From: Deltaproteobacteria bacterium
Lineage (GTDB): Bacteria; Desulfobacterota; Desulfomonilia; UBA1062
NCBI GenBank assembly: GCA_029552245.1
Contig: JAKPDW010000005.1
Coordinates: 124,001 to 188,000, forward strand
Direction of reading: 5' to 3'
Length of the DNA stretch: 64,000 nucleotides
The notes under the pieces are model-generated. The model saw only the letters and a list, made by a program, of their open reading frames with translations. It was not told the origin of the DNA and ran no database searches. The position numbers and the translations under genes were made by a program. Of this stretch, positions 4,451 through 62,249 are shown piece by piece (positions within the stretch are counted from its first letter, which is position 1; every line of letters starts with the position of its first letter).

Positions 4451-5752
4451 TCACCCTGTAACGACCCGAACGATCCTCCCCACGAGATCGTACTCCCACG
4501 CCCGGGTGACCTGCACCGCCACGATCGTCCCAGGCCTGGCGTCACCCTCGGTGATCACCACCATGCCGTCCACCTCGGGCGCCTGGAAGGCGGCCCTTCC
4601 GCTCGCGAGGAGGTCCGTCTCGGGGTGGGGACCCTCCACCAGTACAGGTATCTCGCCGCCCACCATGTTTTTCAACCTCTTTTTCGACACCTCCTGCTGG
4701 ATGCCCATGATCCTTCGCCTTCTCCTTGCGGCGACGGCCCTGGCAGGCCTGCCCCGGAGGGACGCGCTCCTCGTCCCCTCCTCTGGCGAGTAGACGAAGA
4801 CGCCCAGGTGATGGACCCTGCCGGAGGCCACGAAGCGCTCGAGCTCCTCGAAGGCCTCGTCGTCCTCACCCGGGTGACCCACCATGAGGCTCGTCCTCAC
4901 CCAGACTTCCGGAGACGCCGAACCAAGGAGATCGAAGGCCCTCCTCACCGCATGGGCGCCGCCTTTCCTGCCCATGGCCTCAAGCACCCTGTCGGAGACG
5001 TGCTGTATGGGCATGTCGATGTAGGGACATACCTTCGGGTTCTTCCCGAGGTGCTCCACAACCGCCCCGGACAATGAGGCGGGGTGCACGTACATGAGCC
5101 TGATCCACTCCAGCCCCTCCACGGTGCTCACCATGTCGAGGAGCCTGGCCAGGCCATCGGTCATGCCCAGGTCCGTGCCGTAGTTCCCCAGGTCCTGGGC
5201 CACGAGGATCACCTCGACCACGCCCTGTCCTGCAAGGATGCGGCATTCTTCCAGGACCTCCTCGGGCGGCTTGCTCACGAGGGGCCCCCTGATGGACGGG
5301 ATGAGACAGTACCCGCACCTGTTGGAGCACCCCTCGCTCACCTTCACGTAGGCGCTGTGGGGGTTCGAGGTAAAGGCCCTCTTCACGACCCCCTCGAAGA
5401 CCGGCTCGAGGATACCCGCCCCCTGCTCGTAGGCCTCGACGATGCCCTCGTACGTACCCGGCCCGGCAAACAGGACTATCTCGGGCATCTCGTGCAAGAG
5501 CTCCCTCCCGTAGCGGCTCACCAGGCACCCTGCGCAGATCACCTCCCTGCCGGAATCCACCGCCTCCAAGAGGGCCGTGATCGACTCCTCCACCGCGGAG
5601 GTCAGGAAGGCGCACGTGTTGATCACCACGAGATCGGCGTCCTCGGCGCCGGGGACGAGCGTATAGCCCGCTTGCACGAACCTCTCGCAGATGTACTCCG
5701 AGTCCACGAGATTCTTGGGGCAGCCGAGACTCACCATCGAGAAGCGCTTCAT
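4451..5752 (-). CDS. rimO: Ribosomal protein uS12 methylthiotransferase
   Basis: A radical-SAM enzyme that methylthiolates the conserved aspartate of ribosomal protein S12. The 433-residue product has the MiaB/RimO domain order. An N-terminal UPF0004 domain carries cysteines 11, 47 and 76 for the auxiliary cluster. The radical SAM motif CSNRCGYC gives cysteines 142, 146 and 149, and a C-terminal TRAM domain follows. The opening MVSLGCPKNLVDSE is characteristic of RimO rather than MiaB. It lies 9 bp downstream of glgC and is probably co-transcribed. Confidence 0.95.
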   Translation of the reverse strand: MKRFSMVSLGCPKNLVDSEYICERFVQAGYTLVPGAEDADLVVINTCAFLTSAVEESITALLEAVDSGREVICAGCLVSRYGRELLHEMPEIVLFAGPGTYEGIVEAYEQGAGILEPVFEGVVKRAFTSNPHSAYVKVSEGCSNRCGYCLIPSIRGPLVSKPPEEVLEECRILAGQGVVEVILVAQDLGNYGTDLGMTDGLARLLDMVSTVEGLEWIRLMYVHPASLSGAVVEHLGKNPKVCPYIDMPIQHVSDRVLEAMGRKGGAHAVRRAFDLLGSASPEVWVRTSLMVGHPGEDDEAFEELERFVASGRVHHLGVFVYSPEEGTRSASLRGRPARAVAARRRRRIMGIQQEVSKKRLKNMVGGEIPVLVEGPHPETDLLASGRAAFQAPEVDGMVVITEGDARPGTIVAVQVTRAWEYDLVGRIVRVVTG

Positions 5753-25646: not shown

Positions 25647-25922
25647 TCAGCTCACAATGGTCTTCACCGCCTCGATCACGGGCGCGGTGAAGAGGGCCAC
25701 GAGCACTGCATACAATGCGAAGGAACCGACGGCCTCGCTCATGTAGATCCTCGGGTAGCGGTGCTTCAGGGACACGATGGTGAGCCCGCCCATGATCAGG
25801 CAGCCGAGGTGGAAGTACGGGAAGTTCGACCCGCCGGCGGTTGCCGCAGCGGCGAAGGCGAAGGTGGACGTGATGAGAACGACGAAGAGAGCGACGACCA
25901 CTGTCTGCACTGTCCTTTTCAT
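25647..25922 (-). CDS. Small membrane protein with signal sequence, unknown function
   Basis: 91 residues. A hydrophobic start (about 8-27) ending in FAFAAAA looks like a signal peptide or first helix. Two further hydrophobic segments (about 38-52 and 65-85) flank a basic loop LKHRYPRIY. I do not recognise the family. ATG 25922 has GGGAGGA upstream. A sigma-54-like promoter lies at 25967-25982. It sits in the same unit as the AtpZ-like gene, hinting at a membrane complex (inference). Confidence 0.65.
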   Translation of the reverse strand: MKRTVQTVVVALFVVLITSTFAFAAAATAGGSNFPYFHLGCLIMGGLTIVSLKHRYPRIYMSEAVGSFALYAVLVALFTAPVIEAVKTIVS

Positions 25923-25966
25923 TGTCTTGTCCTCCCGAAGAGTTCTTTTCGTTCCACCCTTGGTAT

Positions 25967-25982
25967 AGCAGGGGGCGTGCCA
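25967..25982 (-). promoter_or_regulatory. Sigma-54-like promoter of the small membrane protein operon
   Basis: On the minus strand TGGCACG-N4-CTGCT has a perfect -24 half and one mismatch in the -12 half (TTGC expected). GG and GC are exactly 10 nt apart. Predicted start near 25956, 34 nt before the ATG at 25922. Confidence 0.6.
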
Positions 25983-26009
25983 GGGTTTCCCGCCGCGGCC
26001 CAGGCTTTT

Positions 26010-26023
26010 TATCATGTTGATAT
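26010..26023 (-). promoter_or_regulatory. 14-bp element shared with 60222-60235
   Basis: The 14-mer ATATCAACATGATA (minus strand), containing inverted arms TATCA-TGT-TGATA, lies 28 bp upstream of the -24 box of the sigma-54-like promoter. An identical 14-mer lies upstream of the sigma-54-like promoter at 60191. It may be a chance match or an activator site. Confidence 0.35.
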
Positions 26024-59032: not shown

Positions 59033-59533
59033 ATGAGGAAACTTTGGGTAGGTTTGCTGGTGGGGGTCATGACTTTCGCAATCGGCGGCATCGCCAAGGC
59101 GGCCACCGACACCTCGACCGTCCAGGTCACCGTCGCCGCGATCGATGCGCTGGTGGTGACCGACGGCGGAACCATCACGCTCGACGAGGTGGCCGGCAAC
59201 AACATCACGGGCGACCCTGACACCACGGCTCGTCTCAGCTACACGCACAACTTCGCAACGAACAGGATGATCACGGCCGAAGTCCTGGCAGGCGGAATGC
59301 CGGCCGGTACCCAGGACATCACGCTCACCGTGGCGGTCGCAGGCGGCGCAGGCACGGTGACGCTCGTCTCCGGCGGCACCCGGTACGGCAGCCCCCAGGC
59401 GGTGTGGAACAACATACCCAGGGGAGCGATCAGCGACGCGACCGTGACCTACGGCGCGAGCGCCACGGCATCCGGGACCGAGGCCGGGTCGTACACGTTC
59501 ACGGTCACGTTCACCAGTACGGACCAGACGTAA
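59033..59533 (+). CDS. Secreted beta-rich protein of unknown family, paralogue A
   Basis: 166 residues. A signal peptide (about 1-23, ending AKA) precedes a Thr/Val/Gly-rich domain with alternating strands. VLAGGMPAGTQDITL lies in the centre and YTFTVTFTSTDQT at the end. It recalls small exported beta-sandwich proteins but I cannot name a family. An excellent AAGGAGG site precedes the ATG. The convergent gene at 59633 encodes a paralogue, and a 68-bp stretch is nearly identical between them. Confidence 0.75.
   Translation: MRKLWVGLLVGVMTFAIGGIAKAATDTSTVQVTVAAIDALVVTDGGTITLDEVAGNNITGDPDTTARLSYTHNFATNRMITAEVLAGGMPAGTQDITLTVAVAGGAGTVTLVSGGTRYGSPQAVWNNIPRGAISDATVTYGASATASGTEAGSYTFTVTFTSTDQT
59270..59337 (+). 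repeat. Left arm of 68-bp inverted repeat within paralogue genes
   Basis: This segment matches the reverse complement of 59823-59890 at 65 of 68 positions, with 43 consecutive identical bases (59285-59327). It encodes the shared ITAEVLAGGMPAGTQDITL core. Confidence 0.9.
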
Positions 59534-59590
59534 GCTCAACCAATCCCGAGCCCGCACTCGGGATGGCACCTTTCCCTTTGTCGAGCACGG

Positions 59591-59617
59591 GCCCCCGGCA
59601 AGCCGGGGGCCTTTCTT
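59591..59617 (+). terminator. Hairpin terminator of paralogue A
   Basis: GCCCCCGGC (59591-59599) pairs with GCCGGGGGC (59602-59610) and is followed by CTTTCTT. It sits between the convergent paralogues. Confidence 0.75.
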
Positions 59618-59632
59618 GTTCGAGATCTCCGG

Positions 59633-60175
59633 TCATTGATCGTCGAGACTGGTGAACGTAACCGTAAACCCGTATGTCCCGGCGGATGTCTTACCCGCTG
59701 TCGCGCTGGCACGATACGAGACAGGGACCGAAACGTAAGCCCCCCTCGATAAGCCTTGAAACACCTCGTGTGGCCCGGCAGGCACGCCTGAACTCACCAC
59801 GACGACCTCGGGACCCGAGCCCACCGCCACGCTGAGCGTGATGTCCTGGGTACCGGCCGGCATTCCGCCTGCCAGCACCTCGGCCGTGATCTTCTTTGCG
59901 CCGGGCGCGTTGTGCACGTAGTTGAGCCGGGCCGTGACGTCAGGGTCGCCCTCGAGCAGGGTGAGGCCCGCGGCCGCTTTCAGATCGAGGAGGATGCCCC
60001 TTTCGGCGTCTGAGACCGCGAGCTCGTCTACCGGCGCCACCGCGACCACGACCCTGCTGGTGGACTGAGCGGCCATGGCCCCCCATGCCGACATGACCAC
60101 GGCCGCCGCCAGGAATACCTGCAATGCATATCGTATATAGCTGCTCCTGGATTCCATGGAATTGCACTGCGTCAT
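59633..60175 (-). CDS. Secreted beta-rich protein of unknown family, paralogue B
   Basis: 180 residues with a signal peptide (about 15-42, ending MAAQ) and the same domain as its convergent neighbour: DVTARLNYVHN, VLAGGMPAGTQDITLSV and YGFTVTFTSLDDQ. ATG 60175 has AAGGAA upstream; an ATG at 60157 is an alternative. A sigma-54-like promoter and a 14-bp element shared with 26010 lie upstream, so control may differ from that of paralogue A. Function unknown. Confidence 0.72.
   Translation of the reverse strand: MTQCNSMESRSSYIRYALQVFLAAAVVMSAWGAMAAQSTSRVVVAVAPVDELAVSDAERGILLDLKAAAGLTLLEGDPDVTARLNYVHNAPGAKKITAEVLAGGMPAGTQDITLSVAVGSGPEVVVVSSGVPAGPHEVFQGLSRGAYVSVPVSYRASATAGKTSAGTYGFTVTFTSLDDQ
59823..59890 (-). 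repeat. Right arm of 68-bp inverted repeat
   Basis: Reverse complement of 59270-59337 with three substitutions, one of which changes a residue in the neighbouring codon context (Thr to Ser). The arms are 485 bp apart. Confidence 0.9.
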
Positions 60176-60190: not shown

Positions 60191-60206
60191 TGCAGGGGTC
60201 ATGCCA
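60191..60206 (-). promoter_or_regulatory. Sigma-54-like promoter of paralogue B
   Basis: Minus-strand TGGCATG-N4-CTGCA has GG and GC exactly 10 nt apart, with one deviation in each half from TGGCAC/TTGCA. Transcription would begin about 4-6 nt before the chosen ATG at 60175, so the next ATG at 60157 may be the real start if this promoter is used. Confidence 0.45.
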
Positions 60207-60221
60207 CCTGGCCTCACCAGC

Positions 60222-60235
60222 TATCATGTTGATAT
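60222..60235 (-). promoter_or_regulatory. 14-bp element shared with 26010-26023
   Basis: ATATCAACATGATA on the minus strand, 16 bp upstream of the -24 box. It is identical to the element upstream of the 25922 gene. Confidence 0.35.
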
Positions 60236-60546
60236 TCCTTGCATTACCCGAAACGACACCATCTCCCGCGTCTATCATTTTGAGAGTCGCCCAGGACAGG
60301 CTCTCATTTTGAGTCATGGCCCTTCCGCGTTGACCACCGCGGTCGGCCGCACAGGCCTGTCACAGGGTCCCGCACCACGCGGGCACCGAGGCCACGCGCC
60401 TCCCCGAAGAACATGGAAAGGACCGAGAGGCGGCCGAGAGGAAGACCGCGCATCCACCCCGTGACCGGCAGACGGCCCCACGCGCAACGCATGGGGCCGG
60501 GCGCCTTCACGGATACAGCCGCACGCAAGGGCCTCGGCCGGCGGGC

Positions 60547-61935
60547 TCATCCACCCCCAGGCTCTGAGGCCAGCCCGTAACGGGCGAGCTTCCGGTAGAG
60601 GGTGGCCTCCCCGATACCCAGGATGCGCGAGGCCTTCTTCCTGTTGCCCCCGCTCAAGGAGAGCGCGTTGACGATCGCCGCCCTCTCGTAGTCCCTGAGG
60701 CGCGATCCCTCGGGCCGCACGAGACCCGCCGGGCTGCCCTTGGCCTCCCTGATGGTGGGCGGGAGGTCTTCGGGCATGATGAGTTCAGACCTCCCGAGGG
60801 CCGCGGCCCTCCTGATGACGTTCGCGAGTTCCCTGATGTTCCCGGGCCAGTCGTAGCGTTCGAGGAGCTCCACCGCCTCCGGGGAGATGTCCCTCACCCT
60901 GGACACATCCCGCGAGGACTCCATGACGAAGTGCCTTGCCAACAGCGGGATATCCTCCTTGTGCTCCCTCAGCGGGGGCACCCGTATGTGGACCACGTCG
61001 ATCCTGTAGAGGAGATCCTCGCGGAACCTCCCCTTGCCGACCTCCTCGCTCAAGTCCTTGTTCGTCGCGGCCACGATCCTGATGTCGACGGGATAGCTCT
61101 GGGCGCTGCCTACGGGCCTGACCTCGCGCTCCTGGATGGTCCTCAGGAGCTTGACCTGCATGGGAAGCGGCAGGTCCCCGACCTCGTCGAAGAAGAGGGT
61201 GCCGCCGTCGGCCGCCCGTATGAGACCCTTCGCGGCGGTGTGGGCCCCCGTGAACGCGCCCTTCACGTGGCCGAAGAGCTCGCTCTCGATCACGGTTTGT
61301 GCGATGGCCCCGCAGTCAACGGGCACGAACACGCCCCGACAACGCCTGCTCTGGTGGTGGATGGCCCTCGCGACGAGTTCCTTGCCGGTTCCCGTCTCAC
61401 CCTCGACGAGCACCGATGCATCCGTGGGGCCCACCTTGGTGATGAGCTCCTTGAGCCTGAGCATGACCGTCGAGTCTCCGACGAGGCTCTCGTAGCCGAA
61501 GCGCATCTCGACCTTTTGCTTGAGCCTCTCGTTCTCCCTCTTGAGCTGCCATATCCGGTAAAGGTTCCCCACCCTGGACCTCATGGCCTCCACCGAGAAC
61601 GGCTTCTCCATGAAGTCCGTCGCGCCGAGCTTGATGGCCTGGACCGCCTCCTGGACTCCCCCGTGCGCCGTGACCATGATCACCATGGTCCCGGGGTGGG
61701 CCTCACGCATGGTGGAGATCAGCTCGAGGCCGTCCATCTCGGGCATCATGTAGTCCACGAGCGCGGCGTCTATATGCACCCTGCCCATGATATCGAGGGC
61801 CTGCCTGCCGCTCGATGCCGTGTGGATGTCGTACCCTTCCTTCTCGAAGATGCGCTTGATGATGGCGACCACGGTGGGGTCGTCATCCACGCACAAGAGC
61901 GTGAACCTCTCGTTCTCGAAACCATGACCTCCCAC
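60547..61935 (-). CDS. NtrC-family sigma-54-dependent response regulator
   Basis: 462 residues. A receiver (acidic cluster 17-19, Asp61 in LVDYMMPEMDG), an AAA+ domain with Walker A GETGTGKE (179-186) and GAFTGA (226-231, contact to sigma-54), and a Fis-type helix-turn-helix with KKASRILGIGEATLYRKL. All parts needed for an active enhancer-binding protein are present. The GTG at 61935 is chosen because AAGGGGAGG lies 5 nt upstream. No kinase gene is adjacent. Nearby sigma-54-like promoters (60191, and more remotely 17894 and 25967) are candidate targets. Confidence 0.93.
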   Translation of the reverse strand: MGGHGFENERFTLLCVDDDPTVVAIIKRIFEKEGYDIHTASSGRQALDIMGRVHIDAALVDYMMPEMDGLELISTMREAHPGTMVIMVTAHGGVQEAVQAIKLGATDFMEKPFSVEAMRSRVGNLYRIWQLKRENERLKQKVEMRFGYESLVGDSTVMLRLKELITKVGPTDASVLVEGETGTGKELVARAIHHQSRRCRGVFVPVDCGAIAQTVIESELFGHVKGAFTGAHTAAKGLIRAADGGTLFFDEVGDLPLPMQVKLLRTIQEREVRPVGSAQSYPVDIRIVAATNKDLSEEVGKGRFREDLLYRIDVVHIRVPPLREHKEDIPLLARHFVMESSRDVSRVRDISPEAVELLERYDWPGNIRELANVIRRAAALGRSELIMPEDLPPTIREAKGSPAGLVRPEGSRLRDYERAAIVNALSLSGGNRKKASRILGIGEATLYRKLARYGLASEPGGG

Positions 61936-62249
61936 GGGCGCCTCCCCTTGCGAACTCCCTCCGCGACCGAGTCTATCAAAATGATAGCCACATGCGCAAC
62001 CCGCTTTCAGCCGCGCCCGTGACGTGACCCCTCTTCGCCTTCGCAAACGTCGTGGACTTTCCACAAAAGTACCATCTTCGATCAAGGTGCGTGGCATTCA
62101 CCGTCAAGGTATTCCTTGCGTCGGTGCGTTTCTGCCGAGCGAGCGCTCTCTTTCTTGGAGCGTTTGGAGGCAAGGCGGGCATCATGGAGTGACTTCCCGG
62201 GGTCCGCACCCAGACCCTTAGGATCCATTTCATGTACCGAGGAGTGCTC
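61936..62249. other. Divergent intergenic region
   Basis: Between the sigma-54 activator and the crotonase remnant. No gene is seen. The remnant still has GAGGAG at 62239-62244 before its ATG. Confidence 0.45.

Follow-up and report, generated by a model that had tools for sequence, protein, structure and literature searches.

The convergent genes A and B, encoded in a 64-kb stretch of deltaproteobacterial DNA that was analysed as a whole (hereafter, the window), share a short patch of near-identity in inverted orientation, which the sequence comparisons described below identify as gene conversion, ordinary in kind, recent and lineage-specific. Taken as a whole, it is quite likely that one segment was copied, probably from A to B, between paralogues that are most likely subunits of a chaperone-usher-like fibre. 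The features are collected in Table 1.

Table 1. Features of the A/B locus (positions in the window)
Feature	Positions	Strand	Description
Gene A	59033-59533	+	ORF; 166-aa secreted beta-rich pilin-like protein
Second matched block in A	59209-59251	+	84% identical to 59909-59951 in B
Repeat arm in A	59266-59337	+	72 nt; probable conversion donor (site polarity)
3'-terminal coding block of A	59483-59518	+	83% inverted match to 59648-59683 in B
A-B intergenic region	59534-59632		99 nt; two hairpins, one terminator-like
Gene B	59633-60175	-	ORF; paralogue of A, convergent with A
Repeat arm in B	59823-59894	-	72 nt; probable conversion recipient (site polarity)
Sigma-54 promoter-like site of B	60191-60206	-	TGGCATGACCCCTGCA, 20/20
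Palindromic activator-like site	60221-60235		CTATCA-N3-TGATAT
Palindromic activator-like site	60272-60286		CTATCA-N3-TGAGAG; counterpart upstream of B in G003
NtrC-type response regulator	60547-62097	-	Response_reg, Sigma54_activat, HTH_8 (Fis-type DNA-binding)
Perfect palindrome	61973-61987		CTATCAAAATGATAG; upstream of regulator's probable start; also in G003

The first-pass annotation of the window described A and B as convergent secreted paralogues, and this was borne out: the two proteins are ~50% identical and both carry apparent signal peptides (approximately residues 1-23 in A). The start of B is uncertain. An in-frame ATG at 60157 (minus strand; MESRSS...) is kept in the congener G003 and is a candidate start, and a good ribosome-binding site, AGGAG, lies between this ATG and a conserved ATA codon at ~60136 (minus strand) that aligns with the start of A. 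Among ~100 related genomes, G003 (JAKPQL010000077.1, a deltaproteobacterial metagenome assembly) was the sole other carrier of A and B, and close homologues of A were found only there. In G003, the pair keeps its place and orientation between lolA and the NtrC-type regulator gene, with an intergenic region of the same length (99 nt). In three other congeners, the genes upstream (ftsK, lolA and one for a beta-CASP-type ribonuclease) are retained, and the stretch examined contains neither A and B nor the regulator. The comparison of the pair is thus one between two genomes, both draft assemblies; A1 and B1 denote the genes of the window's genome, and A2 and B2 those of G003.

The repeat arms are identical at 68 of 72 nt, and the earlier counts of 65 matches in the best 68-nt stretch and of 43 identical bases in a row proved exact. 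This is the longest exact inverted match within the window; in 20 first-order Markov copies of the window, the longest such match was 15-20 nt, compared with the 43 nt observed. The remaining inverted pairs across the window are 36-39 nt long and 71-75% identical. The two genes were also said to have diverged outside the core, which holds overall, although two lesser matched blocks (84% and 83% identical; Table 1) depart from it. The block nearer the repeat is possibly an older conversion; its site polarity is mixed and its tree retains the species grouping. The 3'-terminal blocks are equally spaced in both species (59483-59518 and 59648-59683 in the window, 5462-5490 and 5618-5646 in L005). 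The last ~15-20 coding bases (GTYACGTTCACCAGT) are near-identical in A and B of both species, and neither the window's genome nor G003 has GTYACGTTCACCAGT anywhere but at the ends of these two genes.

When codons that encode the same residue in A1 and B1 were compared, 16 of 18 were identical in the tract versus 30 of 59 elsewhere (Fisher p 0.005), and none of 20,000 codon permutations reached an identical run of 43 nt. Codon comparison of the four genes gave tract nucleotide identities of 91% for A1-B1, 67% for A2-B2, 71% for A1-A2 and 65% for B1-B2; in the flanks, A1-A2 identity was 70-74% and A1-B1 identity 51-58%. In G003, only 8 of 13 same-residue codons of the tract were identical between A2 and B2, and the 72-bp inverted repeat was not found in its A/B pair. 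The identity of synonymous positions in the tract, together with the absence of the repeat from the G003 pair, indicates a recent and lineage-specific conversion, in support of one of the two readings put forward in the first-pass annotation. In the core of the tract (codon columns 103-118), ~10 positions unite A1 with B1 against a different base that A2 shares with B2, indicating that the copying postdates the species split. Of the informative sites that remain within or next to the core, ~10 are A-like and 3 B-like, and on the strength of these ~13 sites, A was probably the donor and B the recipient. The topology favoured in the tract pairs A with B, and that favoured in both flanks pairs A with A; the tract offers only 66 sites, and there the AU test does not formally reject the species grouping (p 0.09).

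The other reading in the first-pass annotation was an invertible, phase-variation-like switch, in which the ~485-bp interval is turned round by recombination at the arms and the gene 3' ends change places, so that chimeric proteins alternate. The arms are in codon register, so both products would stay intact, and 43 bp of exact identity is sufficient in principle for homologous recombination. Nevertheless, the repeat is missing from G003, where the orientation and the pairing of the gene ends are unchanged, and a search of the window's genome for a serine recombinase (PF00239) found none. Moreover, the two halves of A best match the A of the congener (46 of 56 and 48 of 63 residues), whereas the match to the B of the congener is 28-29 of ~60 residues. 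Since the 3' half of A agrees with A2 at 48 of 63 residues and with B2 at 29 of 60, no lasting flip has taken place in either lineage. The switch is therefore unsupported, and we regard it as very improbable. It is just as hard to credit that constraint at the DNA or RNA level maintains the repeat as an inverted sequence with a function, be it structural or regulatory; the separate 3'-terminal inverted match, which both species retain with equal spacing, would suit such a constraint, but the 72-bp repeat itself was not retained in G003. An assembly artefact, in which the assembler copied or collapsed the segment, is conceivable for a draft assembly of 95 contigs, but here too the probability is very small, because the arms differ at 4 positions, the exact match of 43 bp is shorter than the usual read length, and both A and B are intact. 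The least probable explanation is protein-level constraint, which would hold the segment alike in both genes since the tract spans the conserved motif of the family (ITA...MP.GT...I.L); this is refuted by the identity of synonymous positions and by the orthologous pair of G003, which differs at one third of the tract bases.

In the gene conversion that we favour, ~45-72 bp of one gene, probably A, would have replaced the matching segment of B after the split from the congener, either by RecA-type recombination between the inverted paralogues or by a polymerase template switch. The outcome would be a single patch of identity and no functional invertible element. Conversion between paralogues in one bacterial chromosome is documented for tufA and tufB of Salmonella (PMC5485169). 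The present case resembles it in the non-reciprocal copying within one chromosome, and differs in that the tract is only tens of bp long and the paralogues are ~50% identical, closely spaced and inverted. In yeast, template switching homogenises short inverted repeats, sometimes with inversion of the spacer, and was described in coding genes, for arms of 7 bp or more and spacers of at most 70 bp (PMC8604942); it also occurs at quasipalindromes of E. coli (PMC7202029). The likeness to these cases is that one inverted arm templates the other to give a cluster of changes, although the A/B spacer of ~485 bp is much longer than theirs. The repeat thus offers a small and clean case in which paralogues that lie close together in inverted orientation have undergone gene conversion.

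The first-pass annotation assigned A and B to an unknown family. This remains true of the databases, as Pfam and NCBIfam scans of A and B gave only sub-threshold, mutually inconsistent matches and no database family fits, but the analysis now allows a description of both the family and its operon. Searched with a profile of all four A/B proteins, G003 yielded a weak relative, X, just past the regulator. X heads an operon of the order X, Y, a chaperone-like protein (273 aa) and an usher-like protein (930 aa), where "chaperone-like" and "usher-like" are names that reflect no more than the position, size and domain type of the proteins. The window's genome carries the X operon on a separate contig, C32. 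A and B align with the X proteins along their length. The homologue search was extended to several hundred further genomes of the phylum, and the operon, with one or two X-type genes, was found in eight of them (G197, G177, G442, G528, G529, G607, G569 and G704); with G000 and G003, the genomes that have the subunit family and operon number ten. In G529, G607, G569 and G704, the usher-like gene would fall past the stretch examined, and in the stretch of G528, Y was not seen and the usher-like gene was seen only at its start. The three congeners without A and B are also without the usher-like gene of the X operon; two congeners have this gene as well as A/B, and three have neither. By these alignments, A and B are diverged members of a secreted family of ~160 residues, unnamed in the databases, that has a conserved operon. 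No relatives turned up when viral contigs were scanned.

The chaperone-like protein had no PapD match in Pfam; only sub-threshold matches to fn3_5 and WxLIP_PGBD were obtained, the latter, in this protein and its distant relatives, with E values of 0.001-0.009 that lie under the curated cut-offs. The usher-like protein had no match to Usher (PF00577), and showed CarboxypepD_reg and NEW3-type matches instead. In G442, the usher-like protein (L051, 2904-6206) ends in a C-terminal SPOR (peptidoglycan-binding) domain. The chaperone-like protein has remoter relatives (24-28% identity) in G365, G108, G103, G051, G235, G335 and G067 (L036-L042), and no subunit genes were recognisable in these stretches.

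The locus is predicted to be under the control of sigma-54. A response regulator of the sigma-54 type, like that beside A and B, adjoins the subunit operon in three of the ten genomes; relatives of the regulator (40% identity) do so in G197 and G442. The promoter-like site upstream of B has a counterpart scoring 19/20 at the equivalent place in G003, and six more genomes (G197, G177, G442, G528, G529 and G607) have motifs of 19-20/20 no more than 400 bases upstream of their subunit genes; the window background for such scores is ~0.05 per kb and strand. B thus combines a predicted -24/-12 site with an adjacent NtrC-type activator, and this combination, the mark of sigma-54/NtrC control, is conserved. 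A candidate site upstream of A (16/20) was rejected because its score is at background level and it is not conserved. Within the window, palindromes of the form CTATCA-N3-TGATAG (at least 11/12) are confined to the A/B locus, with two upstream of B and one upstream of the probable start of the regulator, whose true start is probably downstream of the site at 61973. They recur at equivalent places in G003, and five simulated windows contained none at this threshold. As the motif was first derived from the region upstream of B, the independent finds are those upstream of the regulator and in G003. We infer from this arrangement that the regulator may bind the palindromes. The C32 subunit operon of the window's genome has neither a sigma-54 site nor a palindrome. 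Elsewhere in the window, the gene at 25647-26023 (minus strand) encodes a predicted membrane protein of small size (MKRTVQTVVV..., from 25922) and is preceded by a B-type motif pair, namely a sigma-54 site TGGCACGCCCCCTGCT (25982) and a palindrome TTATCATGTTGATAT (26009). From these motifs, this gene is a possible second target of the regulator.

An AlphaFold model of A built with 4 sequences was useless (pLDDT 36), and a 19-sequence alignment was used instead. The resulting model was beta-sandwich-like (pLDDT 73, pTM 0.66). Of the solved structures, it is mostly fibre subunits that match it best: pilins (CS17, CFA/I, CooA, EcpA, type 1, P, Caf1 and Csu), fibres of the TasA-like kind and filaments of archaea. 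The structural Z values reach at most 7.5, where the level of trust is 8 and a common arrangement may suffice below it; the likeness to pilins is therefore a strong hint and no proof. Foldseek with the same model gave a best E of 0.008 and nothing at E <= 0.001. In a profile comparison with the PDB, a "needle protein" (9vzi) matched at E 0.004, but E rose to 0.6 with the larger alignment and the match was dropped. The mature N-terminus of A (approximately residues 24-36) lies outside the modelled core, a position that fits that of a donor strand. The paralogous exported beta-sandwich proteins A and B most likely serve as subunits of an extracellular fibre, and they are probably extra subunits of a chaperone-usher-like fibre system that lacks a name. 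The module would comprise the sigma-54 response regulator, pilin-like subunits, Y, the two-domain chaperone-like protein and the large usher-like outer-membrane protein, and it may assemble the fibre by a route resembling the chaperone-usher one, with the chaperone-like and usher-like proteins in the corresponding putative roles. A bolder version casts A and B as pilins of a hitherto undescribed chaperone-usher-like fibre that is switched on by its own sigma-54 regulator, with conversion between the convergent genes reshuffling subunit diversity; this is a tentative suggestion that we consider rather doubtful. No description of such a module was found in the open-access literature. The wider gain of the analysis is the description of this unannotated, patchily distributed module, which may give little-studied deltaproteobacterial lineages a surface fibre of a new type and is amenable to direct structural testing.

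The module is similar to chaperone-usher pili (class 5/alpha CFA/I, CS17 and CooA; archaic Csu) in its small, exported subunits of beta-sandwich type, whose N-terminal segment is loose, and in the two proteins encoded with them, one exported, Ig-like and of two domains, the other large, beta-rich and of outer-membrane type. Unlike those pili, it has no Pfam match to a pilin, a PapD-type chaperone or an usher; its large protein has NEW3-like and carboxypeptidase-regulatory domains and, once, SPOR; and a regulator and sigma-54 promoters are attached to it. The likeness to the chaperone-usher systems is one of anatomy and membership is not claimed, as the Pfam chaperone and usher models fail. With the Gram-positive WxL and WxL-interacting proteins, the module has in common the weak, sub-threshold match of the chaperone-like protein to WxLIP_PGBD, although it shows no WxL motif and all of the matches are under the curated cut-offs. 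The model of A also aligns with TasA-like fibres (Z 6.9). Unlike the WxL and TasA systems, the A/B module belongs to diderms and is accompanied by a partner of outer-membrane type.
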